Source of the DNA: Telopea speciosissima
Lineage: Eukaryota; Streptophyta; Magnoliopsida; Proteales; Proteaceae
Length of the DNA: 64,000 nt
Assembly: GCF_018873765.1 (NCBI RefSeq)
Contig: NC_057926.1
Location: 37,370,946 to 37,434,945 of the forward strand
Direction: 5' to 3'
The notes under the pieces are model-generated. The model was not told the origin of the DNA, did no database searches, and worked only from the letters and a program-made list of their open reading frames with translations. Within the stretch, counting starts at the first letter, position 1. Each line of letters opens with the position of its first letter. Position numbers and translations under genes: made by a program. Shown one piece after another: positions 3,946 through 64,000 of this stretch.

Positions 3946-6900
3946 TTAGTTAAAGATTCCTCTTGCTGCTCTCCTAAAGATATCATGGGCCTGTGGGAAA
4001 GTTTCAAGTAGTTATTGATTTTTATTAAGTATCGAACTGAAAGTTTGCGAGGAAAACTGAGAAGTGTTCTTACCTGCTTGGATGAAAGGCCCATCTTCTC
4101 CAAGTCGCACAACTGCAAAAACCCAAGCTATTCTTTTTAGTGGTTCTGAGGGTTAAAACCAAGAAATTTGTTGGACTCTAAATTCACAGGTTTCAAATAT
4201 TTCTTACCGATTGAAAAGGGCTTGTTTCTCTGATCTGGATTATATAATCTGCTCTTTTCTGTCCAATCCCCTGGATGTTGAAGAAAGATAAAAACCATCA
4301 GGAACATGAAGTATGGTTTCTTTTCTTACAATTTTATCTACTGGAATATACCTTTAGCTCCAATAGTTCTTCTCTGTAATCCAAGAATAAAGTAAACAAC
4401 ATCAGCGACGAAAATGTACAATATTAAGTGTTCCACATTAACAGAAAATGAACTTACTAAGATAGAGAAACAGAAACTACCTTCTGGCAGAGTTCAAGAA
4501 TGCAAGGTACTCTTGAACAAGGGAACTCTGTAAGTCCAAATCAACAAAATGATAAAATAAGTGTTAGAACCAAAATTGAAATGACTTGAGAGAAGATTTC
4601 TGATGCCAATGCTTGTACCAACCTTCAAATTGGAACTCCGTGCATTGAACTTATCAAGTGGAGTGCCAGTTATTTGAACTCCATTGCTATCATAGGTTAT
4701 AGGATAAGGTGTTTTAGGAGTCGTGGGCTCAAAGAAAACTAAACATACTCTGTCTTTGGATGAGAGGTCTTCAAGGGTTTTAGTGTTTATATTGGGGTTG
4801 ATGGGAGAAAGAATTTTTCTTATAGAATTTTGTAGTTCTCTGATCCTATCATTAGTTGGTGGCGATCCTAGAGAGTTGGTAGATGGGATGGTTGCACTTA
4901 TGTTATCATCCTTGCCCAAAGGTTTACCTGCAATAAAAGATGATGAAGTTATGTATCCACTTGATTACTATATATTTCCAAAGAAATGTGAAAAAAATTG
5001 TTCTAATCACACTCACGATTTGGTGATGATCCCACAGTGTTGAAAGATGGCATGGTTGTCTTCTTTACTTTGTCTGAAGTCTCACCTGCACAAGAGTTAA
5101 ACAGAACATAACATTAAAATTACAACTCCAGGATTTTCTTTTATTTTCATTTTTCTTTACTTGGGGTGGTTGGGGATGGGGGGACCGTCCAATTCAAACC
5201 CAGTTCATCTGCTTGATATGCCTAGTAGAAATGTACAAGTTAAATAACTTTCATTTTATTCCCTCAAATTTTCTATAGCAACTTACCCAACAAGTTTAAT
5301 AGATTACAATGATTGTCTTGAAATTTCTAAAACATGATGGTCAGTAGATTCTATGGAAAAGGAAAGTACCAGGTAAAGTTACTGATTCTAGAACACTGAG
5401 CATGCTTCTTGTAGCATCACTGCCTTCTAAGCATTCCTCCGTTGTCTTAAGGCCCATGTCCTGCAACAAGAACTTCTGTCAAGGAGGAAAATGGTGCTGT
5501 GCATGTGTTTATTCATCCACATTTACATTGAGGAAAACCCGCAATGGATGTGTATATCTGAGCATCAACAGACAGTGCAATATTGATGCAGTCATTACAT
5601 CTCTTATCTTTAGTAATACTTGATTCATCATCTCCTATGGTACCTCAATGGTCCTTATAACCATTTACTTTATGAAAGCAAATGGTCTGCAGAGATAATA
5701 ATCCAGTCAACTACAAGAAGATCCAAAGCTCCAACTATTTCAACAAGTAAAAAATCAGCAGAGCAAATCTGTCTATTGGCATCAATGGAGTTGCCCATGT
5801 ACAGAAAATGGTCGTCATGAAAGATAATATGATGGCCAAGAAGAGAAAAGCTACAGTCATATGGAATTTATTTAATGGTGGTTTCCATATCCCTAAGCCT
5901 TCACTATATGTGCTTCTGCTTCGACTTTCATGATAATTGAAACAGGCTTCAAATAGGCTTTGAACATTTTGAGCAATAAATCTCATGAATTAAGAAATGG
6001 AGGTTGACAATACACGGACAATGATTTCCAAGATGATATGTTCCCTAAATGAAAACAGGGGTACAGGGAGAAAACTTGTTTTTCTGTTTGTTAGATATAG
6101 AAAAATATTTGCAGTAGGCAGGTTCCCCATTTGTTTGCAATTGGTTGCTTTGAGGCCCCAGGGTTTGGGCTATCACAACGGAAATCTACTAATGACTGCT
6201 TTCTCAGCTTGTTATTCATCTTTCACAGACTTGTCAATTTGAAAGATAATGTGAATAGATGGTGCCCATTTATTCCTTTAATTTAAATGCCAAAATACTT
6301 ACTGCTTCTTTAATTAAATCTGTTAATTGATGATTTTCCATTGCTTGCACTACCTCCATTGAAGGTGCAACTAGAGCTCCAGAATTGCATAGGTTTCTGT
6401 GAAACATAAAAAATAAAAAGGAAACATAAAACACTAAGTAAACTTGAAGTACAATGTTGGTTGCTTTTCTCAGAGACTCCATGTAGTTGGGCCTTACCTC
6501 TCTTTGGAAGCTGATTCTCTTTGAATGCCAGTAGCCTTTCCTTTTGAAGGAGTTTGATGCAGCTTGGTTCTCTTAAAAGAACTCATATAACTGGGAGTTT
6601 TGATTGAAAATGGAGAACAAGGTGCCACTGTTCTTTGTACACTCTTTGTCTTTCCTTTTGATTCTAGCCAAGCCTGTAGCTTTGCTTCCATGTCAACTTT
6701 CTCCTTTGGAGTATCTTGTTTTTTATCTGAAGAAAAATAATTTGAAATCTGACGCGATCGAGCTGCTAAGCTAATAGTGTGAACTGATTCCTGGTACTCT
6801 CCTGGATTCTATAATTTAAAATAAAGAAAAAAAGGAGTACCCATCAAGTTTCAAAAGTGTTTAATGCAGCAGAATGAATAAGAAGCCATGGAAGAAAGCA

Positions 6901-8375
6901 TCCCAAATTCCTTACCAGACAAACAACCATCAAACAACTACTCATCCCTCCAAGAGAGTCCTGCAATATCCGGGTCAGTTTGCTTTCGCGATATGGTACT
7001 CTGGCTTTATTGTTGTTGAGAGCGTAGATGACATTAGACAAGGCAAAAAGGGACTGGTTGATTTTTGCGCTCTCTTGTAGACGAATTCCCTCATTGTAGG
7101 TCCTCCTATTGTCTTCATTTCCTGGTTGAATAAAGTTATAGATAATGTGAAGAAGAAAAAAGGGAAAAGAAAAGAAAGAGAGTAAATTTGAAGAATCCAT
7201 TATACCACAATAACAAGATTCCAAGGTAGATAACCAACCTGCCAAATCTATGAGGTTCAGCTTCCCTCTAACAAGAGCCTTAGAACCATCCTCTGAAGCT
7301 GAAGAAATAAAAATCACAAGCACTCCATGGCTTCTACTTGAGATGTCATTAAGACTTGTGTGCGCAACTTTGCGGCTTTGGATTCCAGAAGCAAAAATTT
7401 GATGGAACTCAAACATTGAGCTTACAGGTACCCTGGAAAGTCCCCTGAGTTGAACTTGCCCATCCTTGTCCTCCAACAGAGAAATCTCTTTGGCTTTGGG
7501 TTCGAAAAGATCAAAACACCTGTCCATGTATATTTCGTAGTAAGAAATTTCTACTGAACTTCCAGTATTCTTGCACATAGAGAGAACTGTTGACATGGCC
7601 AGAGGCATGAGACCCGGTAGCTCTTCAGATCCCTGCAATCGCAGGTTCATTAACCTTACCATTTAGACCTCGATTAAAATTAAATTTACAGTAAATAAGA
7701 ATTACAAGAAGCCAGACAACATGAATAGGTGAGTGGTCAAGAACCTGAGGGTGGGTTTATTCAGATCATGGACCGTACCACCAAATATGGTTAAGAAACT
7801 AGATGAGTGGAAGAGGTCCAGAAGAAGGAGAAGAAGCCTGGATAATACCTGCATCGTGTAAGTCTTTCCGCTCCCAGTTGCGCCATAAGCAAAAATAGTA
7901 GAATTGAAGCCACCAAAAATCCCATTGATCAAAGGGCTGACTTCTTTGTGGAAGATCTGAGTCACATTGTCGTTCTCTTGACTGAAGAACGAATCTAACT
8001 TATAACATTCCTTCCGGCTGCAATGGGAAGAAAGAGAATACCAGCAAAACCCTCGATTCAGTATTCTCAAAATCAGTGATTCGATCAAAAGCACAATCTA
8101 TACAGGATGGGATAAATGAAAAGAAATTCTTCTCACCTGGACTCGTGATCTTTGAGATGAACGACAACTTCTTCGCCAGACCCACAATCTGGATCGAGAG
8201 CGGAGATGCATGGGGCTGAATTTCCACCTCTGGCAGCGATTTCAGAGGGGAGAAATGGGCGTAACCTTGCTATTACCCTGACTTTAGACGGCAAGGGTTT
8301 CTGGGAAGCCGGAGATCTGGCCATTGTGCCGGCGTCGGTGAGTTCTGTATGGATTTCCATCGAACGATGAAACAA
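3946..8375 (-). CDS. Kinesin-10 family motor protein with C-terminal helix-hairpin-helix
   Basis: I resolve 14 exons with GT..AG borders and consistent phase: 8375-8137, 8017-7849, 7632-7239, 7121-6916, 6808-6498, 6396-6303, 5460-5370, 5085-5017, 4927-4623, 4527-4481, 4373-4352, 4270-4208, 4112-4074, 3990-3946. Together they give 697 aa. The motor domain covers about residues 30-350: P-loop GATGSGKT (125-132), switch I NDISSRSH (231-238), switch II DLAG (265-268). The middle is lysine-rich. The tail (about 640-690) has the helix-hairpin-helix signature [10 protein letters not shown] and ends RAARGIFN. That tail is known from Kid/KIF22-type kinesin-10 chromokinesins, where it binds DNA, so a role on chromosomes or the spindle in mitosis is inferred. 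It most resembles the plant KIN-10B/KIN-10C class; I cannot choose between them. Downstream ATGs at 8360 and 8324 are alternative starts. The 5370-6303 interval reads as one 842-bp intron. Confidence 0.93.
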
Positions 8376-20220: not shown

Positions 20221-22111
20221 ATGAATGCAGTGGCTATGTGGTGCGAAAGGAGGGCCTTTCACGGCATCTATACAACCATTATACGTAGCAGATTCACTCC
20301 GCGGCTCCACCAAATTATCTCTTCTTCTTTCACCTTCTGCACCCAAAATCCAGATGTTTCCTCTGAGGTGGGAAACCAAATCCAAGACCTTCGAGAGGAG
20401 GAGCTTAGAAACTGCTTATCCTCGAAGATTGAGAAGCTCGCCAGAGGACAACCCGTCCAGTCTGCCTTTCAGAACTGGATGGGCGATGGATTTCCCGTTC
20501 ACAGAGGCGATATCTTCCACACCGTTAATCGACTGAGGAAACTCAATATGAATAAACGCGCCCTTGAGGTGATTCTCCTCTTCTTTTTATAATTTTTGCT
20601 CTGCTTAGTACCTCTTACGATGCATGTTAATGTGGAATTCCTTAAAAGCACACTATGCATTTGCTTAAATGCTTACAAGAACAACGACGCCACCAACTGA
20701 ATCTCTGCAATGTTCGTAGAGTACTACATCAAAAAGTTACATTTTCTTTTGGGTGGGTGCTCATTATTTCCCATTGGATTTACTAAAATCAATGTGTGTG
20801 AATAAGAAAGAGGCACATATAAAAAAGAGTTGAGGTTGAATTTCTGCTACTTTGTGACAGGTAATGGAATGGGTGATTAGGGAAAGACCCTACAAGTTGA
20901 AGGAGCTCGATTACTCTTATCTGTTGGAGTTCACGATTAAGCTTCATGGGATATCGCAAGGTGAGCGTCTCTTCTCCCGTGTACCTCCCCAGTTTCAGAA
21001 TGAGTTGCTCTACAACAATCTTGTCATGGCCTGCTTGGAAAAGGCCGCCATCAGGCTGTCATTGGCATACATGAAGAAGATGAGGGAACTGGGACACCCC
21101 ATCTCTCCCTATGTCTTCAATCGCCTCATAATCCTCCACTCCTCCCCTGGCCGCAGGAAAGCCATCCCGAGAATCCTCACTCAAATGAAGGCTGATGGCG
21201 TTGTCCCTCACGTCTCCACATATAACATTCTCTTGAAAATTGAAGCTAACCAGCACAACATTCAAGGGTTGACAAAGGTGTTTGATGATATGAAACGAGC
21301 ACAAGTCGAGCCTAATGAAATAACATACTGCATTTTGGCTACAGCCCATGTCGTGGCAAGGTTATATGCCGTGTCAGAGGCCTATGTTGAAGCAGTGGAG
21401 AAGGTGAAAACAGGGGATAATTGGTCAACCTTGGATGTTTTACTTATGTTATATGGCTATTTGGGGAAGGAGAAGGAGCTTGAGTGCACATGGCGTGTTG
21501 TACAACAACTCCCCCATGTTAGAAACAAGAGTTTTGTGCTTTCCATTGAAGCATTTGGAAGAATCGGATGGCTAAACCGATCTGAAGAAATTTGGTTGGA
21601 AATGAAGTCAAGTAAACAATTGAGGTACACTGAGCAATACAACTCCATTATATCTGTATATTGCAAACATGGGCTTGTTGATAAAGCATCGGAATTGTTC
21701 AAAGAAATGGAGATCAGTGTGTGCAATGCGAATGCAATAACCTATCGACATCTTGCACTCGGTTGCTTGAAAGCAGGGTTAGTGAAGGAAGCCTTGAAAA
21801 CTCTTGAAGTAGGGATGGATCAAACAACCACTACCAAGGTCAGGAGATCAGCCCCATGGCTGGAAACCACACATTCAATAGTTGAAATCTTTGCAGACAT
21901 GGGTGATATAGAGAATGTAAAGAAATTGTTTGGGGAGTTGAAGGAATCTAGGTATACCAGATATACTTTTGTGTATAATACCTTGATAAGGGCCCATGTT
22001 AAGGCTAAGGTTTATGATCCAGATCTTTTGCGAAAGATGATTCTAGGAGGGGCTAGGCCAGATGATGAGACCTACAGCCTCCTGAAACTTTTGGAGCAGT
22101 TTCGCAATTGA
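20221..22111 (+). CDS. P-type pentatricopeptide repeat protein, At1g07590-like
   Basis: Exon 1 is 20221-20568 (116 codons) and exon 2 is 20861-22111. The donor is GAG|GTGATT and the acceptor ACAG|GTAATG; the join is in phase and gives 532 aa. From about residue 165 there are tandem 35-residue helical PPR motifs, including STYNILLKIEANQHN, EQYNSIISVYCKHGLVDKA, ITYRHLALGCLKAG and FVYNTLIRAHVKA. The first 45 residues are rich in Arg, Ser and Thr and poor in acidic residues, as in a mitochondrial presequence. Overall it resembles Arabidopsis At1g07590, a P-class PPR of about the same length. P-class proteins bind organellar RNA and affect its stability or processing; the RNA target here is unknown. 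No E or DYW domain is present. The start was chosen as the first ATG before a continuous frame; the second ATG is six codons downstream. Confidence 0.93.
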
Positions 22112-28350: not shown

Positions 28351-29217
28351 AGACATCATCTTCCACATTCAAGGCAACATTAGCTCATTCAGGTACACCT
28401 ATATGTTTCACTTCCTCATCCTCCACTCCTTGGGTGATTGACTCAGGTGCGTCATTACATACGACTAGTAAGCCATATTTGTTCTTTTCATTTTAGCAAT
28501 CTGATTCTCCATCAAAGTTTATTCTTGCCAATGGATCTCCTACTAATGTTACTGACCATGGTGTTGTCCCCTTGTCTTCCATGCTTTCATTATCTATTGT
28601 TCTTTATGTTCCCAAATTGCCTCTTAATCTCTTATTTGTTTAGTCAATTGACGAAACATTTCAACTGCTCCATAACATTTTACCCTTCTCATTATGTGTT
28701 TCAAGATCTCAAGACAAAGATGACGGTTGGTGATGAACATGAGAGGGATAGCCTATACTACTTTGACATTGCCTCCTCTTCTACAGTAGCATCTGCTACC
28801 TCTACTGGCGTTTCTCCTTTACATTGGCACTGCCGACTTGGGCACCTTTCTCTTTCCAAGCTACAACATATGATCCATAGTTGCAAGTCTCTTTTTTGCC
28901 TTAAGTGTGAAACTTGTGAGCTTGCCAAGCATCACTGTACTGGTTTTTCCATCACACTTAATGAGTCTTGGAGTAGGACTTTATTTGATTTAGTTCCTTT
29001 TGATATTTGGAGCCGATGTAGGGTCAAGAATCAGTCCAGTTTTTATTATTTTGTGTCCATTATTAATGACCACTCTTGCATGACGAAGCCGTATCTTTTA
29101 AAAGATTGTTCAGAATTTGTCTGTCTTCAAATAATTTTATAATGAAATAAAAGTTCAATTTGGTGTGTGTTTAAAAATTTTGCGTACAGACAATGCTTTG
29201 TAGATTACCCAATGTGA

Positions 29218-40271: not shown

Positions 40272-41240
<969 letters not shown>

Positions 41241-47905: not shown

Positions 47906-49654
47906 TATCATGCGCATTAGTATTATCAGGCACCCAATATTCCTCGTACCCCTCAGCGATTCAATATTCTATGTACCACCCCTCAATATTCCATGTATAA
48001 CCCCTGTTTTACATTCTAATGTCAAATAGGTCCAATCCGTTAAGTTTAACCGTTAAATAAAAATTTGATCATTTTATCCTTATTTTTTATATTTATAAAC
48101 TTAAAAAGACTTAATTACCGTGATCTATTTATTTATAATATCAAAAAAATCTTTTTGCCCTACCCTAATTTGATAAGACTTTTTTATTTCTACTCTTTGT
48201 TTTTAAGAATCTAATTCAATCTAATTATTAAAATATCTTTATTAAGACATAATTATTAAAATACCCTCATCTTCCCAAATCTACAAAGAACCTTTTCTCA
48301 AAAATAACAGGATACGAGTCGATCGGTGTGGCCGATGGCGTTCGTATGGCATCGGTGGTTCTCCGGGAAGAGGCGATGGCGTCAATGGACGAGGGTTCGT
48401 CGCCTATGAGCAAGCCAAGGATTTGAGGGAAGCGCAGAGGGAGGAATTGCAGAAAATGGGTTTGTAAGTAGAGGATTGATAGTTTTTCTGGCAGTTGACC
48501 CAGTTGAATGCAGCACCCAAGTCCAGGACTAGCTTTGTGGGTTTCAGAGGCGTTCTCTGCTTGATTGTGGTTGTGTATTGGAGGGTGGAGAGGTCTTTCG
48601 TAATGGGAATGAGAAGTGCTGTTGGTAGAGAGACTGCATAGTATGAGGAGTAGGGAAGGAAGAAGAATATTAAGGAGAAGAAGAAGAAGAAATTGGAGGT
48701 AGAGAGGAGGGCCATGGCGTCGATGATTGAGAATGACTTCACTAAAGCTTTCTGAATTAATTCTGATAATGATGGTGCCTGCTTGGAGGGCGGTGAAGCT
48801 GGTTATTTTGTAATAAATGGAATAAAGCCAATCAATTAAAGGAGCTAGTGCCTTGAATCTTGATCCAAAGCAAATCAAAAAGAGAAAAAAACAGTAACCC
48901 GGTGTAGTGTTTGAAATATGAACAGAGGGGATAACGTGTATTTCATTTGGGGCCTGAAACGTTAGCAGTTTCTGAAATGTTGTGGGTACTTACTTCAAAC
49001 GTATTTCCCCAAAAGATTTGCCATTTCTGAAACTGGTTAGCGATTGTGTCTCTGGATAGAAACGGAGCAGAGGGACTGAATAATCTTCTTCAAAGTAGAA
49101 TGAATCCCTAGATAGAAGAACACGATCAGAATAGGAAGAAAATACAGATCGAACAGCATTTAGGGTTTTGGGAAACCCTAGTATGCTCTCTCAGAGAAAA
49201 AAAAAAAAAAAAAAAAAAGGAAAAAGGTGGGAATCAGAGAACAAAAACCAGTCTGTGTTGGATTTTGAGAGAAGTTTTCAGAAATGGAGGATGGATTTGG
49301 GGAAGATGAGGGTATTTTGGTAATTATGCCCTAACAGGGTATTTTAATAATTAAGTTGGATTAGGTTCTTAAGAACAAATAGCGAGAATAAAAAGGTCTT
49401 ATCAAATTAGGTTAGGGCAAAAAGATCTTTTCATATTATGAACAAATAGGTCAGGATAATTAGGTCTTTTCAAATTTATAAACATAGAAGAAAAAGTAAA
49501 ATGGTCAAGTTTTGAGCACTTATCGGCTAAACTTAACGGTTTGGACTTATCTGAAATTAGGGGGTAAAACAAGAGTGGTACATGGAATATTGAGCCGCTT
49601 AGGAGAATAAGAGGAATATTGGGTGCATTATAAGGAGGTACGTATACTTTACCC
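47906..49654. mobile_element. Long-inverted-repeat (Pack-MULE-like) element carrying a protease gene fragment
   Basis: Arms of about 350 bp (about 47931-48281 and 49293-49625) are inverted complements, with landmarks CACCCAATATTCCTC at the outer ends and ATTACCCTCATCTTCCCAAA-like blocks at the inner ends. The right outer end extends to GGGTAAAGTATACG (minus strand), a typical Mutator-like terminus; the left outer end is degraded (start approximate). Between the arms lies a fragment of a plant aspartic-protease gene and a 21-base A-run region. No transposase is present. Confidence 0.75.
48404..48742 (-). pseudogene. Truncated basic-7S-globulin/xylanase-inhibitor-type aspartic protease
   Basis: A 112-codon minus-strand frame. 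A hydrophobic signal segment (FFFFFSLIFFFLPYSSYYA, about residues 18-36) is followed by ALLIPITKDLSTLQYTTTI, KQRTPLKPTKLVLDLG and NWVNC. This matches the first quarter of EDGP/basic-7S-globulin/xylanase-inhibitor-type proteins, which are secreted A1-family aspartic protease relatives of about 400 aa. The active-site triplet is DLG instead of DTG or DSG, as in the inactive members. The frame stops after LKSLACS and the remaining three quarters, including the second active-site aspartate, are missing. It lies wholly between the arms of the long inverted repeat, so capture by a transposon is the likely origin. Confidence 0.8.
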
Positions 49655-52317: not shown

Positions 52318-52995
52318 GAGCAACTGACACAAACTCACCATGCATTGTAGGCATGATACATGGTTATAACTACATTGCCCAAAACATTCGCTATACATCT
52401 TTTTTCTGCTTTCCTTGTTAATCTACATGTATGTTGGTAGGATATGAGAAAGAATTATGGTAATAAACTTTCAAATGCAAAGTCAAAGATATTGGAGATA
52501 ACTAATTTGGTAAGTGCATATTTAACATAGACCTTTAACCTTATTTTTTCCTTTAAATCATAAAAATATTATTTTAATTATATTAGGTTTGGTACATACA
52601 AGGAACACATGTTATATTTCAAGTGCAAAAATGTGAAGTATTTTATTGATAGTAGATTATATAAATTTTTTTATTACTCTTGAGCTTGATTATAAATTTT
52701 ATTTCAGTAGTTTTACTTCCATACAAGCTTCCTTCAATTGATGCACATAGATTTCAAAACCTTTGCAACAATACCAGTGGCTTCCTCAATAAGACCCAAA
52801 AGAATTTATTTGTATTCTTGTATATGGAGATAAATAATTCAAAATATTTCTCATAAAAAGGAAAAAAAATAGTTCTTTTACTTAAACCCATGGTACAAGA
52901 TGAAAGCAATAGTACTAGTGGCTTCCTTTTGTGTTAATGAAAATTGGTTGCATTAGCCAACTACAAGTGACACGATGATTATTCCTCTGATTCTG
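52318..52995. other. Intergenic, no gene seen
   Basis: A+T-rich with no supported feature. Confidence 0.5.
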
Positions 52996-53725
52996 GATTT
53001 TGGATTTTGGATTTTGGAAAATTAGAAAATTGTTGCCAGTGACCGATGATGAGTATAAAATCATAGAAATTTTGGGGAAAATCACCTTTTAAGTTGAACG
53101 GGTCTCCTAAGAGGTTAAAATTGCTTGTATGCAAGCATATTTAGAATTGTAGGCATAGTTTTAGAAATTAGCACTCTACCTGTTACGATCTCAAATTTTT
53201 TATGGAGATTGAGCTTTGATATTGATTCCAATACAAATCAACTAAATTAGGTTGGAATTTATCAGAAACCTCAATCGATCCACTTTTTGGGATCAGATGT
53301 GGAATCGGACTTAAAAAACAAAGGGGCAATTACTAAAACTCCCCTAAACCTATATTTACTCAAGGCCTCATACCCTTAATGTTATATCTGCACCCGAACC
53401 TTAACCTGAACTCCGAATGTAGATCCGGAACCTGGAGAATCCAAGATCATGCCCACTAGCAACCTGTGGTGTACTGACCAGGTAATCATTTGAGAGGAAG
53501 GAAGTCTAGTGGTGACATCTTACATACCAACTAGGAGCCAAGCACCATCCACATGCAGTTGTTTTGTGCACCAATTGATGTACAACCTAAGGTAAACCCT
53601 TTCCTTCATTTGAATTAGGATTTTTAAATAATTAAACACTCTTAGTAGCTTTATTATTTTGTTTGGCAAGTGTCCAAACAATGGCATAAGCCTCTAATAT
53701 ATCTAATGCAAAAACAGCAAGAAAT
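52996..53725 (+). repeat. Direct repeat, copy 1 (5' part of the LTR-like segment)
   Basis: Matches 56609-57367 at high identity, starting with (GGATTTT)n-type sequence and GGAAAATTAGAAAATTGTTG, and ending at AAAAACAGCAAGAAAT. It begins 185 bp before the TG of the putative LTR, so the repeat unit is larger than the LTR end itself. Confidence 0.85.
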
Positions 53726-56608: not shown

Positions 56609-58000
56609 TCTGGATATTGGATTTTGGATTTTGGATTTTGAATTTTGAATTTTGAATTTTGGAAAATTAGAAAATTGTTGCCAGTGACAGATGAATATAA
56701 AATCATAGAAATTTTGGGAGAAATCACCTTTTAAGTTGAACGGGTCTCTTAAGAGGTTAAAATTGCTTGTATGTAAGCATTTTTAGAATTGTAGGCATAG
56801 TTTTAGAAATTAGCACTCTACCTGTTCTGATCTCAAATTTTTTATAGAGATTGAGCTTTGATTTTGATTCCAATACAAATCAACTGAATTAGGTTGGAAT
56901 TTATCAGAAACCTCGATTGATCCACTTTTTGGGATCGGATGTGAAATCGGACTTAAAAAACAAAGGGGCAATTACTAAAACTCCCATAAACCTATATTTA
57001 CTCAAGGCCTCATACCCTTAATGTTATATCTGCACCCGAACCTTAACCTGAACTCCGAATGTAGATCCAGAACCCGGAGAATCCAAGGTCATGCCCACTA
57101 ACAACTTGTGGTGTACTGATCAGGTAATCATTTGAGAGGAAGGAAGTCTAGTGGTGACATCTTACATACCAACTAGGAGGCAAGCACCATCCCCATGCAG
57201 TTGTTTTGTGCACCAATTGATGTACAACCTAAGGTAAACCCTTCCCTTCATTTGAATTAGGATTTTTAAATAATTAAACACTCTTAGTAGCTTTATTATC
57301 TTGTTTGGCAAGTTTCCAAACAATGGCATAAGCCTCTAATATGTCTAATACAAAAACAGTAAGAAATATGAATTTACATAGCTTTATGATATTTATTGAT
57401 TTCATTATTTATAACTTATGGTTGTGAATGATATGATGTGGAATGATTGGCAATATAAATTCTTGTGATAGATTAGATGTCGTAGTCGGCTTAGAAACGG
57501 GAGGTATAGTGTGTCGTAGTATGGGATGCGGGAGCACTATACACCTTGTACTATGCCATTTAGACTGCATATGGCTAGGAATGTCATTCCTTAGTGCTAC
57601 AACCCTTACCAGCAGGGGTTCAGGTGTTGGGTGATCATAGCTCCCTGTCACTGAAGAGTGTGAAGGACGCTCGGATGGGGTCCTAGCGATGATTATCGGG
57701 GTCTACCCAAGGGAAGGTATATAGAACCAACGACCACTGTGAGCTCCATACAACAGTTGAGGTTACGTCTCGGGGCGTTTAAGAAGTAACCGAAAACATT
57801 TTTCGAGTTGTCGCAGTAGCACAGACTCGACTTGGGCATTTTTTTATTAGGTGGAATTAATATTAAAATTGAACCCATGCATTTAGGATGGATGCTTGTG
57901 TGTGTGCAGTCTATCCTTTACTTGCTGGGCTCAGTGGAGCTCACCCCTATGGAATTTCCTATTTTTTAGATGATCCTGCAAGTGAATGCGTTTGTGGCAG
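56609..58000 (+). mobile_element. Second, internally deleted copy of the LTR-like segment
   Basis: 56609-57367 repeats 52996-53725. From about 57368 it jumps to sequence matching 55320-55990 (GATGTCGTAGTCGGCTTAG; TATGGGATGCGGGAGCACTA; TGCTGGGCTCAGTGGAGCTC). About 1.6 kb of the other copy, including its TATA region, is missing here. Same orientation as the first copy. Confidence 0.75.
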
Positions 58001-58339: not shown

Positions 58340-58712
58340 GAGAGTGACATTCATTACACCGAGGAAAAAGAAAAAAGAAAAAAAGTAGAAATACATCGAT
58401 TACGAGCAAGAAACTCATCGTTACTCCATAAAATTCAAACCTAGTTTCTGGTCGTATGATGTTGCCTTTGAGATCTCGTGGTGTCCTACTCCTTCTAGTT
58501 AGTCAACCTTTAATGGCGATGTTCTTAATTTTTTGGCTATTTTGCTTTGTTCTTACGGTGGTGTTTGACGCTACTTTTCTATCTAAAATTTATGAGAAAG
58601 ATTCTATCATGGTAACTTTGTTAAAACTCTGGATTCGATTTAAACATTTTGATTTTGTTCTGAAATCCTTAGCTTTTCGTGTTTCTCCCATTAGTATTAA
58701 ATCATGCTTTAG

Positions 58713-58953
58713 TGTTACGATTCTAGAATCTAGAAAGGGATTCAAGAACCATAGCAGGGGATTTTCTCACTATTTCGAGTAAGTGAGGGACTCCTAAGAA
58801 AGGGAGAACAGAGAGAGACTAAACTATTTTCTTCAATCTTTTCATCCTCAATGAATACAAGGAAATCCCTTTTATAGGGACAATACAAATCTAACTAATT
58901 AACAAACACAACCTACAAATCTAACTAATTAACAAATAACCCCCTTCATAACA
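58713..58953 (-). mobile_element. 3' LTR (241 bp)
   Basis: Plus-strand ends TGTTACGATTCTAG and CTTCATAACA. About 95% alike to 61218-61458 by eye, so the insertion is fairly recent compared with other elements here. Confidence 0.9.
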
Positions 58954-59461
58954 TTCCACGGCCCATCAAAACAACCTTGTCCTCAAGGTTGGTGTTAAGG
59001 AGGGAACCATCATACTCACAGACAAATCTCTTATGGCACGGAGTCTAACCGGGAAGAACCGCTCAAATATAAGCCAAAAATATTTCTTCAAACCAATGCT
59101 TCCACCAATGGAAGCTGATGCAAAAGTCCACTTGGGACAGCAGGTCTATGGAAAAGGCATCATTAGCTCACTGTGCTAACCATTAGAGAGAGATGGTTAG
59201 ACAACAGTAGCTCACTTTAGTGGCCCTGAAGTTGAGCAATAAAGTGTGACAAATATCTTTTGGAAGCTAAATCCAACAGCTGAAAGCCCAATCCAACGGT
59301 TGCAAACGATCCTCCTCTTCCACTACAACTTCCTCTTGAAAGGAAAAATGAAAACGAGTAGGAGCCATGAGGCATGACCATCAATACAGCCCTTGTGGAG
59401 CATGCTAGAGGCATCACCTTCAATACTGCTTACGTGGAACAGAGATAAGAGAGAGAGAGAA

Positions 59462-59810
59462 ATGGGATCTACTTATATTGTTTCAATGGCACTTCCATTA
59501 ACTCCCGCAAGCCATAAGAGGCAACCTCTGAGCTCTGACGCCTTCATCAAGCCTGTGTTGGTGAGGAGGCCATCGAGGGCTATGCCAAGATACCATCAAG
59601 AGCCGATGCAAAGCTTGCAGTTCATGCATCACTGAACGATAAGGTTATCACAGGATTGACAACCGCTACCTTAACAGCTTCTTTGGCAATTCCAGAGGTG
59701 GCACTAAAGCTGTTGTATCTCCTTCTCTTAAGAACTTCTTACTCAGCATTGTCGCTGGAGGAGTGGTGCTTGTTGACATATTTGGGGTTGTCATCGGAGC
59801 TGCCCGTTAA
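59462..59810 (+). pseudogene. psbX: Captured psbX (photosystem II subunit X precursor) copy
   Basis: The sequence encodes a transit-peptide-like start (MALPLTPASHKRQPL..DAFIKPVLVRRPSRAMPR). In a shifted frame it continues with [20 protein letters not shown], and in a third frame with [30 protein letters not shown] and a stop. These are the conserved thylakoid-transfer region and single membrane helix of PsbX, a roughly 4-kDa nuclear-encoded photosystem II subunit. Frameshifts near 59592 and 59705 break it. It lies on the strand opposite to the retrotransposon's own direction. I see no introns, so a cDNA or an intronless gene was the source. Confidence 0.88.
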
Positions 59811-59819
59811 GAGAACATC

Positions 59820-59879
59820 CATTATGCTCATGTCGACTGCCCTGGCCACGCCGATCACGGTAAGAACATGATTTCAGGG
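59820..59879 (+). pseudogene. Captured EF-Tu GTPase-motif fragment
   Basis: Twenty codons read [12 protein letters not shown], then HG where YV is expected, then KNMISG. This is the G3 region of bacterial-type elongation factor Tu (DCPGHADYVKNMI), found in plants in plastid and mitochondrial EF-Tu. It starts nine bases after the psbX stop, in the same orientation. No more EF-Tu sequence is recognisable on either side. Confidence 0.75.
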
Positions 59880-60378
59880 TTTTGGAATCACCCAGAACTC
59901 ACCAACACCGCCTAGTCCCAACTCATTGATCTTTTGATGCAAGCCCGTAGAGACAGAGGTACCCTTCAAAGAAATAGAGCCCCCAGCAACAGCAAGTGCC
60001 GAGGCCAGAATTGACTCTGCACCTGTGGTTGGGATGATTGACAGCTCTGCTTACTATAATAACCACTATATCTCGTCGGCGTCGGATTTGTGACCTCCAT
60101 TAACTCCTCAAGTGGGAAATCCCAACCACCATCGTTAACTATTTTGTAACTTGAGACGCCAAGAAACCCGAAGAGGAGACAGGATCATCAGTGTTTAACA
60201 GAGTAACAGTGGGTGTGAGTACCAGCAGATGTGGCGGCCCCAGTGGTGGCCAAGGCAGAATGATCGAGAAATCCAAGAAGCCTACAACATCATCAGGTGA
60301 AACCAAGAAACCTTTGAGCTTGACGCCACCGTGACTGCCCTCTCGCACTCCCGTCGAAGGTGGGGGCTCTGGTGGTGG

Positions 60379-61140
60379 TCAAGGGGTCCAATTCCCTGCT
60401 CTCCCTGTCGCACACGTATGATGGAGGAGGGTGCCAAGATTGAATGTTGAGTGTGGAAGCTTTTGTGGGACGGCACTGCAAGCGAATCCTAGAGCGATTG
60501 GCGGTGGCCATGGTGGAATGGATAAAAAAGCCAAGAAATTTGTGAAATCTTGGTTCAAGAATGGTTTCGCAGCACGAGTGCCATTCCAATTTGCACCAGA
60601 AATGGGTTTCTTGGAATGGTTTTCGGCCATTATCATTGAATCGACAAGTTCAACCATCTCTGTGAAGGGTTTGAAAATTCCTTCACGCTTCACAACCAAC
60701 GCAGCCTGCAACGACGAATCCTGCAATGAAACTTCCACAACGGTTATGCAATCATCGGTTGTGGTCTTCACTGGTACAGCCTCCTCATTCTTTAGGTGGT
60801 CTGCGCCATTCTCAGTCTTGACTGGCTGAACACCAACGACAGTGGTGACTGAAATTTTTACAGAAGCAACAACAACTACAGGGGTGAATGACAACACAAC
60901 CATGGCAATGGAAGAGATCTCTGCCACGGATGCTCCAGATAGTGCCAAGTAAGGTTCAAGATCGGCCATTGAACCAAAATCTTCAACTGCCGCAAGATCA
61001 ACACTGTAAATCCTCTCTTGCTCCTTGCAGATTGCATCTTCAAGACATGGAAGGAATGCATGATTCGGATCTTGACGTTCTAATGACCGGAAAAGGAGAA
61101 CCAGCCTGTTGTACTCAGAGAACAGACCCATTGGAAGCAC
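60379..61140 (-). other. Open frame (253 codons) in the retrotransposon, function unknown
   Basis: The longest open frame in the interior, sense to the element and beginning about 60 bp after the primer-binding site. It begins MLPMGLFSEYNRLVLLF and has a hydrophobic Val-rich middle (VVLSFTPVVVVASVKISV) and no zinc knuckle. I do not recognise it. It may be leftover leader or gag-region sequence, or another captured piece. Confidence 0.4.
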
Positions 61141-61198
61141 TGTGGAGCTTAAGAATGAAAGAACTGAAAGGATGAAAGCAAGGGAAATGGGAAGGAGA

Positions 61199-61217
61199 GG
61201 ATCAATGAAAGCACCAA
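61199..61217 (-). other. Primer-binding-like sequence
   Basis: On the minus strand TTGGTGCTTTCATTGATC follows directly after the 5' LTR. The TTGGTGCTTTCATTGA form is common after plant Gypsy-type LTRs, though the matching tRNA was not checked. Confidence 0.6.
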
Positions 61218-61458
61218 TGTTACGATTCTAGAATCTGGAAAGGGATTCAAGAACCATAGCAGGGGATTTTTTCACTATTTCGAGTAAGTGAGGGACTCCT
61301 AAGAAAGGGAGAACAGAGAGAGACTAAACTGTTTTCTTCAATCTTTTCATCCTCAATGAATAACAGGAAATCCCTTTTATAGGGACAATACAAATCTAAC
61401 TAATTAATAAACACAACCTACAAATCTAACTAATTAACAAATAACTCCATTCATAACA
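61218..61458 (-). mobile_element. 5' LTR (241 bp)
   Basis: On the minus strand it starts TGTTATGAATGGAG and ends AGAATCGTAACA. TATAAAAGGG lies about 80 bp in. Same length as the other LTR. Confidence 0.9.
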
Positions 61459-64000
61459 GTCACTCATACCTTCACGGTACAGATGAAAAAGAAAGATAAA
61501 GAAAAGTGGAAATACATCGATTCCGAGCAAGAAACACATCGTTACTCCATAAAATTCAAAGCTAGTTTCTGGTCATATGATGTTATCTTTGAGATCTCGT
61601 GGTGTCCTACTCCTTCCAGTTAGTCAACCTTTAATGGTAATGTTTTTTATTTTTTGGCTGTTGTCCTTAGTTTTTACGGTGGTGTTTGTCGCTACTTTTC
61701 AATCCAAAATTTAGGAGAAATATTCTATCACTGTAACTTCGTTAAAACTTTGGATTCGATTTATTTCGATTTTGTTTTAAAACCCTAGGCTTTTCGTGTT
61801 TCTCGTATTAGTATTAAATCATGCTTCACTCATACCTTTACTATACCGAGGAAAAAGAAAAATGAAGAAAAGTGAGAATACATCGATTACGAGCAAGAAA
61901 CACATCGTTACTCCAAAAAATTCAAAGCAAGTTTCTCGTCCTGTGATGTTGCCTTAAAGATCTCGTGGTGTCCTACTCCTAGTTACTCAATCTTTAATGG
62001 CGACGTTCTTAATATTTTGGCTGTTGTCCATCATTTTTGCGGTGATTTTTTAAACTACTTTTCTATCCAAAATTTATGAGAAAGATTCTATCATGGTAAC
62101 TTTGTTAAAACTCTGAATTCGATTTAAACATTTTGATTTCGTTTTGAAACCCTAGGCTTTTCGTATTTCTATCATTAGTATTAGATCATTCTTCGCTCAA
62201 ACCTTCACTGCACCAAGGAAAAAGAAAAATGAAGAAAAGTGAAAATACATCGATTACGAGCAAGAAACACATTGTTACTCCATAAAATTCAAAGCTAGTT
62301 TCTGGTTGTATAATGTGGCCTTTAAGATTTCATGGTGTCCTACTCCTTTTAGTTAGTCAACTTTTAATGGCGATGTTCTTGATTTTTTGGTTGTTCTCCT
62401 TCGTTCTTGCGGTGGTGTTTGACGCTACTTTCCTGTCCAAAATTTATGAGAAAGATTCTGTCGTGGTAACTTTGTTAAAACTCTGGATTCAATTTAAAAT
62501 TTTCAATTTTGTTTTGAAACCCTAGGTTTTTCGTGTTTCTCTCATTAGTATTAAATCATGCTTCACTCATACCTTCACTATACCAAGGAAAAAGAAAAGT
62601 GGAAATACAATGATTACGAGCAACAAACACATCGTACTCAATAAAATTCAAAGCTAGTTTCTTATCATATGATGTTGCCTTTGAGATCTCGTGGTATCCT
62701 ACTCCTTCTAATTAGTTAACCTTTAATGGCGATGTTCTTGATATTTTGGTTATTCTCCTTCGTTCTTGCGGTGGTGTTTGACGTTAATTGTATCCGAAAT
62801 TTATGAGAAAGATTCTGTCGTGGTAACTTCGTTAAAACTCTAGATTCAATTTAAATATTTCGATTTTTTTTTGAAACCCTAGGCATTTCATGTTTCTCTC
62901 ATTTGTATTAAATCATACTTCACTCATACCTTTACTGTCCCGACGAAAAAGAAAAATGAAGAAAAGTAAAAATACATCGATTATGAGCAAGAAACATATT
63001 GTTACTCCATAAAATTCAAAGCTAGTTTCTGGTTGTATAGAGTTGCCTTTAAGTTCTAGTGATGTCTTACTTCTTCTAGTTAGTCAACTTTTAATGACAA
63101 TGTTCTTGATTTTTTTGACTTTTCTCCTTCGTTCTTGCGGTGGTGTTTAACGCTACTTTCCTGTCCAAAATTTATTAGAAAGATTCTTTCACGATAACTT
63201 TGTTAAAACTCTGGATTTGATTTAAAATTTTTAATTTTATTTTGAAACCCTTGGCTTTTCGTGTTTCTCTCATTAGTATTAAACCATGCTTCACTCATAC
63301 CTTCAGTTCACCGAAGAAAAAGAAGAATAAAGAAAAACAGAAATACAATGATTACGAGCAACAAACACATCGTACTCTATAAAATTCAAAGCTAGTTTTT
63401 AGTCATATGATGTTGCCTTTGAGATCTCGTGGTGTCCTACTCTTTCTAGTTAGTTAACCTTTAATGGCGATGTTCTTGATTTTTTGGTTGTTCTCCTTCG
63501 TTCTTGCGGTGGTGTTTGACGTTAATTTTTATCTAAAATTTATGAGAAAGATTTAGTCACGGTAACTTCGTTAAAACTCTAGATTTAATTTAAACATTTC
63601 AATTTTTTTTTGAAACCTTAGGCATTTCGTGTTTCTCTCATTTGTATTAAATCATGCTTCACTCTTACCTTCACTGTACAGACGAAAAAGAAAAATGAAG
63701 AAAAGTGGAAATACATCGATTACGAGCAAGAAACACATTGTTACTTCATAAAATTCAAAGCTAGTTTCTGGTTGTATAGATTTGCCTTTAAGATCTAGTG
63801 GTGTCCTACTCTTTCTAGTTAGTCAACTTTTAATGGCAATGTTCTTAATTTTTTTGGCTTTTCTCCTTCGTTCTTGCGGTGGTGTTTGACACTACTTTCT
63901 TGTCCAAAATTTATGAGAAAGATTCTGTCACGATAACTTTGTTAAAACTTTGGATTCGATTTAAAATTTTCAATTTTGTTTTGAAACCCTTGGCTTTTCG

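Follow-up and report, generated by a model that had tools for sequence, protein, structure and literature searches.

Fragments of psbX and EF-Tu genes nested in a non-autonomous LTR retrotransposon of Telopea speciosissima, probably captured from host mRNA

The window, by which we mean the whole 64,000-nucleotide stretch of Telopea speciosissima contig NC_057926.1 that was analysed, contains a 2,746-bp LTR retrotransposon whose interior carries an almost complete, broken copy of psbX nested inside a piece of an EF-Tu gene. According to our best model, which we regard as probable, the element belongs to a small family of non-autonomous LTR retrotransposons with a cargo slot, into which host mRNAs are captured by template switching and in which one cargo can be exchanged for another.

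Structure of the element

The features discussed below are as follows, with positions in the window.

58347..58709, no strand assigned: single satellite monomer to the left of the insertion
58713..61458, minus strand as its own sense: LTR retrotransposon, 2,746 bp, with two direct LTRs and TG...CA ends
58713..58953, minus strand: left LTR, the 3' LTR in element sense, 241 bp, TG...CA
58954..58999, minus strand: 46-bp block conserved in the family, at the polypurine-tract position, adjoining the 3' LTR
59164..59216, no strand assigned: small palindromic insertion CTAACCAT...ATGGTTAG between 9-bp direct repeats TAGCTCACT
59369..59438, plus strand: upstream EF-Tu piece, about 39 bp of it tandemly repeated, from matches to L008
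59434..59817, plus strand: psbX copy with some 5'UTR and nearly the whole reading frame, frameshifted, antisense to the element; likely parent L005
59811..59879, plus strand: downstream EF-Tu piece, from a match to L008
59880..60153, no strand assigned: module common to the glyoxalase-bearing relatives, right slot border, from the family alignment
60379..61227, minus strand: element-sense ORF of 282 codons from stop to stop, first ATG near 61131
61202..61217, minus strand: primer-binding-like site TTGGTGCTTTCATTGA, directly after the 5' LTR
61218..61458, minus strand: right LTR, the 5' LTR in element sense, 241 bp
61460..64000, no strand assigned: satellite array to the right of the insertion, period about 370 bp, about seven monomers

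The two matched 241-bp LTRs of the original prediction are present and are identical at 233 of 241 positions (96.7%), with no gaps and a K80 distance of 0.034. If substitutions are assumed to accumulate at 1.3e-8 or 7e-9 per site and year, general values rather than ones measured on this genome, this divergence corresponds to an insertion age of about 1.3-2.4 million years. Since TATAAAA is found on the minus strand in each LTR and a primer-like site follows the right LTR, the minus strand is taken as the element sense. The position of the 16-mer TTGGTGCTTTCATTGA and its TGG start fit a putative primer-binding site, and 10 of the 11 family leaders that were aligned contain it, as do L064-L066. 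In public collections, the motif matched one viral contig, within a 498-aa ORF, and one bacterial contig; neither match had an LTR or primer-binding-site context, and both were attributed to chance. The relative L042 and its haplotig L046 carry a changed leader (TTGATACTTTCGTTGAG) at the right-hand LTR, without TTGGTGCTTTCATTGA and without the start of the family ORF, which we read as a sign of recombination with another element and of mosaic family members. The window copy is flanked by TTTAG and GTCAC, with no clear target-site duplication; the corresponding sequences are AAGTG/AAGTG in L044, GCTGT/ACTGT, with one mismatch, in L004, and TAGAA/TAGAA in L042, its end being taken as read in the analysis.

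The original prediction of an interior devoid of retroviral-type genes is supported by a six-frame Pfam scan, in which no reverse transcriptase, integrase or gag domain was recognised and only PsbX and EF-Tu, the latter under the Pfam cut-off, were returned at E <= 1. Weak Pfam matches of other interior frames (E 0.087-0.19) were discarded as chance. The 282-codon ORF, the first part of which is common to much of the family, is longer than expected by chance: its 278 codons inside the interior were matched in length by one of 500 interior shuffles, and a frame as long was found in one of 1000 shuffles of 59880-61217. It matched no known family, and none of the 1326 candidates obtained with a 249-aa piece of it reached E <= 0.001. 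The element thus appears to be non-autonomous, although this ORF may hold a gag too divergent for Pfam. With regard to its class, TRIMs are defined by a very short interior, and the 2264-bp interior of the window element falls outside this definition. The LEDKV tail on the minus strand by the 3' LTR resembles the Ty3/gypsy lineage, a likeness only; the element has no reverse transcriptase domain for placement by phylogeny.

Satellite sequence lies at both sides, as had been predicted, but the description of an element inside a satellite array is loose, given one monomer on the left and about seven on the right. Elsewhere in the window, 52989-53725 and 56634-57367 form a direct-repeat pair, each member about 737 bp long. 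The two are 94.8% identical and lie 3.6 kb from each other, and they may represent a further element of LTR type. Pfam further identified a kinesin motor at 6847-7662, a PPR protein at 20858-22108, a gag-pre-integrase fragment at 28438-29139, a CCHC zinc-knuckle protein at 40275-41240, and a xylanase-inhibitor-type fragment at 48407-48802.

The EF-Tu/psbX cargo and its likely parents

An almost full-length psbX, antisense to the element, had been proposed, and three kinds of comparison bear it out. Seven plant PsbX precursors of 115-124 aa can be aligned with 59462-59804 in three frames, starting at residue 1 and reaching about residue 107-116; one of them (P0008) aligns differently from the others in its last part. 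Plant PsbX chains in the PDB match 59643-59807, with a best E of 2.3e-8, and the Pfam PsbX family matches at E 6.3e-10. When the N-terminal piece was searched alone it gave no match, whereas the mature part did. The C-terminal codons lie in another frame, and one tblastn alignment and the DNA alignment reach 59817. The end of psbX therefore probably runs to this position and overlaps the start of EF-Tu at 59811, which makes the nine-base gap originally placed between the two doubtful.

The presence of EF-Tu in the interior was equally correct, the best E to EF-Tu in the PDB being 4.2e-9; the Pfam match (E 0.00019, 21.6 bits) is under the Pfam cut-off of 26.5. Aligned with the EF-Tu gene L008 of the same genome, 59811-59872 corresponds to 1501-1562 (83.9%, E 1e-13), 59380-59438 to 1432-1490 (79.7%, E 3e-9), and 59369-59400 to 1460-1491 (78%, E 0.008). 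EF-Tu thus flanks psbX on both sides, with 10 bp of EF-Tu missing between in the L008 alignment, and psbX is nested inside it. The reading of a lone 20-codon EF-Tu motif following psbX is not upheld, in view of the second, upstream stretch at 59380-59438. At the 3' junction, GAGAAC (59811-59816) fits the psbX end and EF-Tu alike; at the 5' junction, GTGGA is near to both. These short overlaps of about 5-6 nt are compatible with template switching, though they are read from diverged copies. As coding sequence the cargo is broken, and it most likely has no function of its own.

A search of the same genome with 59440-59900 gave six matches, namely the window itself, L004, L005, L006, L007 and L008. 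The parent search that had been suggested found an intact psbX (L005, 122 codons) and an intact EF-Tu gene (L008, 495 codons, its EF-Tu domain preceded by 87 residues), each on a contig other than that of the window and each intronless. L005 shows 89% identity with the window copy and 90% with L004, where the psbX paralogue L006 reaches 81%; the K80 of L005 to the window psbX is 0.117 (0.217 for L006), and its similarity extends into the 5'UTR. L005 and L008 are therefore the likely parents. Both psbX and EF-Tu accordingly lie inside the element with a parent elsewhere in the genome, and the proposal that fragments of two nuclear genes had been joined is upheld, the second being an EF-Tu gene with an N-terminal extension.

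Two of the six matches, the window and L004, span both genes, and both lie within two-LTR elements; no psbX-EF-Tu junction outside LTR elements was found among the six. L004 is a complete element on another contig, with 244-bp LTRs that are 98.8% identical and with the EF-Tu/psbX cassette present. LTR identity is higher within each copy (96.7% in the window, 98.8% in L004) than between them (92.5-95.0%), which indicates separate insertions after the cassette was formed; the chimera thus moved after capture. Because the two copies have in common a 2-bp insertion in psbX relative to L005, the gene was already broken in their ancestor. L007 is truncated and runs from the LTR into psbX, with the upstream EF-Tu junction. 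Its flanks show a direct duplication of about 140 bp (1367-1506 and 2330-2470, identified by eye). A target-site duplication made by an integrase is far shorter, and this copy therefore probably arrived by repair or recombination.

Cargo slot of the family

LTRs of this family were found in at least 43 places of the genome, the two of the window included; this is a lower bound, as 40 of 86 candidates were scored. Twenty regions were compared piecewise. Ten of them (L047-L052, L054-L056, L058) match in the LTR only and L057 matches in part; these eleven were left out of the cargo counts, as was L046, which repeats L042 with the same flanks (98.1%) and was counted as a haplotig.

A glyoxalase-like cargo occupies the slot of seven distinct copies, two of them in L039 and the others in L040, L042, L064, L065 and L066. 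In the stretch read, a single LTR could be assigned to the second glyoxalase copy of L039. L039 comprises three family members adjoining one another, in both orientations, in one 10-kb stretch of a small contig. The L042 cargo was assigned by Pfam, in a scan of four of the six frames of the slot, to an At5g48480-like glyoxalase (E 3e-18). Its 16 matches in the genome are eight element places (seven without the haplotig), two parent exons, and six short matches of 45-95 bp that were left unclassed. The parent gene, on C7 (L067), has a 700-bp GT...AG intron. In all eight cargo places the exon-exon junction is exact, and the intron has no match in the seven loci that hold them, so the glyoxalase cargo derives from spliced mRNA. 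The evidence for spliced-RNA capture comes from this sister cargo and demonstrates an RNA source for it; for EF-Tu/psbX, whose likely parents are intronless, we infer the same source. In the seven copies aligned, and in the haplotig, the glyoxalase cargo is antisense to the element, as are psbX and EF-Tu. In L042, the cargo matches the parent to a point 88 bp short of the parental stop codon, and the slots of the window, L042 and L040 contain no run of 10 A; both observations argue against a free-standing polyadenylated retrocopy.

The slot can hold other sequences as well. One content is common to L041, L043, L045 and L053, and yet another is found in L044 and in the middle copy of L039, which share the last 830 of 2598 bp; L043, L045, L053 and the middle L039 copy were grouped by alignment to L041 or L044. 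No convincing Pfam match was obtained for the slot contents of L041 (1952-3009) and L044 (1821-4418), and a PDB search with one L041 frame gave none. It is possible that they are further captured genes.

On the left, sequence common to the psbX- and glyoxalase-bearing copies ends at about GAAGTTGAGCAA; on the right, it resumes at about ATCTCGGGGTTTTGG, and the cargo between differs. This alignment comprised three psbX-bearing and four glyoxalase-bearing copies on the left, two and four on the right, and left out L064-L066. The palindromic insertion at 59164-59216, which looks like a miniature transposon, occurs in all three psbX-bearing copies of the alignment but in none of its four glyoxalase-bearing copies. 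In the midpoint-rooted LTR tree (20 rows, with 8 of 17 inner branches open), the psbX carriers group together (98/99) in a clade that also holds the glyoxalase carriers L039a and L039c, and the glyoxalase carriers L040 and L042 are in the other main clade. In the simplest reading, the slot borders and the tree together suggest that glyoxalase is the older cargo and that EF-Tu/psbX replaced it in one lineage. Nevertheless, as the L042/L046 leader points to mosaic members, the glyoxalase cassette could have passed from one LTR clade to the other when elements recombined, and this would mimic a replacement.

Capture route, alternative explanations and known systems

In the model that we favour, element RNA would be packaged and copied by the proteins of an inferred autonomous partner. 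While the plus strand of the DNA is synthesised, reverse transcriptase would jump at short stretches of matching sequence to packaged host mRNAs and then return, in the order element, EF-Tu, psbX, EF-Tu, element. Such switching would yield antisense, intron-free cargo without mRNA 3' tails. The new element would then spread together with its cargo, and in the window lineage the EF-Tu/psbX cassette would have taken the place of an older glyoxalase cassette. Reverse transcriptase copies a host mRNA from its 3' to its 5' end, so capture in plus-strand synthesis predicts an antisense gene with its 3' part first in element sense. The observed order is the predicted one: the downstream EF-Tu piece comes first, then psbX read from its end to its start, then the upstream EF-Tu piece. 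Sense cargo would be the simplest expectation for minus-strand switching, as it would for read-through into an adjacent gene. A stretch of about 130 bp immediately upstream of the EF-Tu piece (59240-59370), of no known source, was counted against the capture model. A stronger version, in which the slot is fixed, mRNA capture on the plus strand is repeated and cargo is always antisense, so that the family acts as a cargo-swapping vehicle and keeps generating host-gene copies in antisense, is tentative, and we would sooner doubt it than accept it.

The gene fragments in the transposon had been ascribed to transduplication; the fragments stand, but reverse-transcription-mediated capture is a better fit for their origin, as relatives of the element captured spliced RNA. 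Capture at the DNA level, in which a broken resident element was repaired with psbX/EF-Tu filler and no RNA step was involved for this cargo, would explain the short junction matches equally well, and L005 and L008, being intronless, fit both routes; we consider it unlikely because the glyoxalase cargo, which occupies the same slot in the same orientation, shows precise splicing at eight of eight places and so reveals an RNA route in the family. The nesting could also have arisen in a free cDNA, the chimera having first been a separate retrocopy or chimeric gene that was later picked up whole. Against this, the two own-genome matches that span both genes are both two-LTR elements, in an assembly that may be incomplete, and in a third match, the truncated element L007, the upstream junction is present, which makes a prior chimera very improbable. 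The EF-Tu pieces are short, and chance similarity or an assembly artefact might be suspected; yet an intact gene of this genome matches them at E 3e-9 and 1e-13, and this reading is refuted by the second complete copy L004 on another contig, which leaves its probability at almost nil.

The regulatory effect on the parent gene that had been raised is a separate matter. The cargo is antisense to the inferred LTR transcript, and exact 21-mers are common with the parent psbX in the window (17, longest run 28 nt) and in L004 (32, longest run 42 nt), with none in L007; three glyoxalase copies compared have 16-61 with their parent. With the EF-Tu parent the numbers are one in the window and none in L004 and L007. 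The 21-mers in common with psbX make an antisense or small-RNA action on it conceivable. That the cassette has been kept as a regulator, through LTR-driven RNA or small RNAs directed against psbX, EF-Tu or glyoxalase mRNA, is nevertheless highly improbable, in view of the broken psbX frame and the few copies. Should antisense RNA arise from these copies, they would amount to antisense constructs of natural origin, with a glyoxalase-like protein, a photosystem II subunit and a plastid-type translation factor as their targets.

Within a single genome, one family thus offers apparent successive states of gene capture (spliced glyoxalase-like, nested EF-Tu/psbX, and two further contents), and the stage of reverse transcription at which capture takes place can be tested directly from how the pieces are oriented and ordered. 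Multi-gene capture by small LTR elements is already established by Bs1 and the soybean TRIMs, and template switching between an element and a packaged mRNA is an accepted route (PMC5408686). The account of LTR-mediated retroposition describes packaged mRNA and switching at short similarities, with several switches possible, and places the switch in the first cDNA strand (PMC5408686). A first-strand switch would give sense cargo, and the antisense cargo observed here would rather point to second-strand synthesis. LTR-captured genes in rice and sorghum likewise lie inside full-length LTR elements and many have decayed, but the examples described are annotated protein genes in elements of 9.9-15.8 kb, unlike the window element (PMC3726574). 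Soybean TRIMs such as GmaRetroS15 are closer: they are non-autonomous, contain fragments of up to three host genes as exons without introns, and produced further copies after capture, as in the window family (PMC4717578). However, the gene-carrying soybean TRIMs measure 1,172-1,449 bp, against 2,746 bp and a 282-codon ORF in the window element, and the account of these gene-carrying elements describes neither cargo replacement nor nesting (PMC4717578). Nested capture with in-slot cargo replacement was not found in the open-licence literature, screened mostly by listing, and the two features look new. The Bs1 retroelement of maize resembles the window element in having host gene parts inside an LTR element, in its case parts of three genes (PMC13317346), as exons only (PMC4717578), and the glyoxalase cargo of the present family likewise lacks, in all eight places, the intron of its parent. 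In contrast to Bs1, whose cargo became a transcribed and translated chimeric gene according to the account available, the window element carries an antisense, nested and broken cargo, and the same slot in its relatives holds a different gene.
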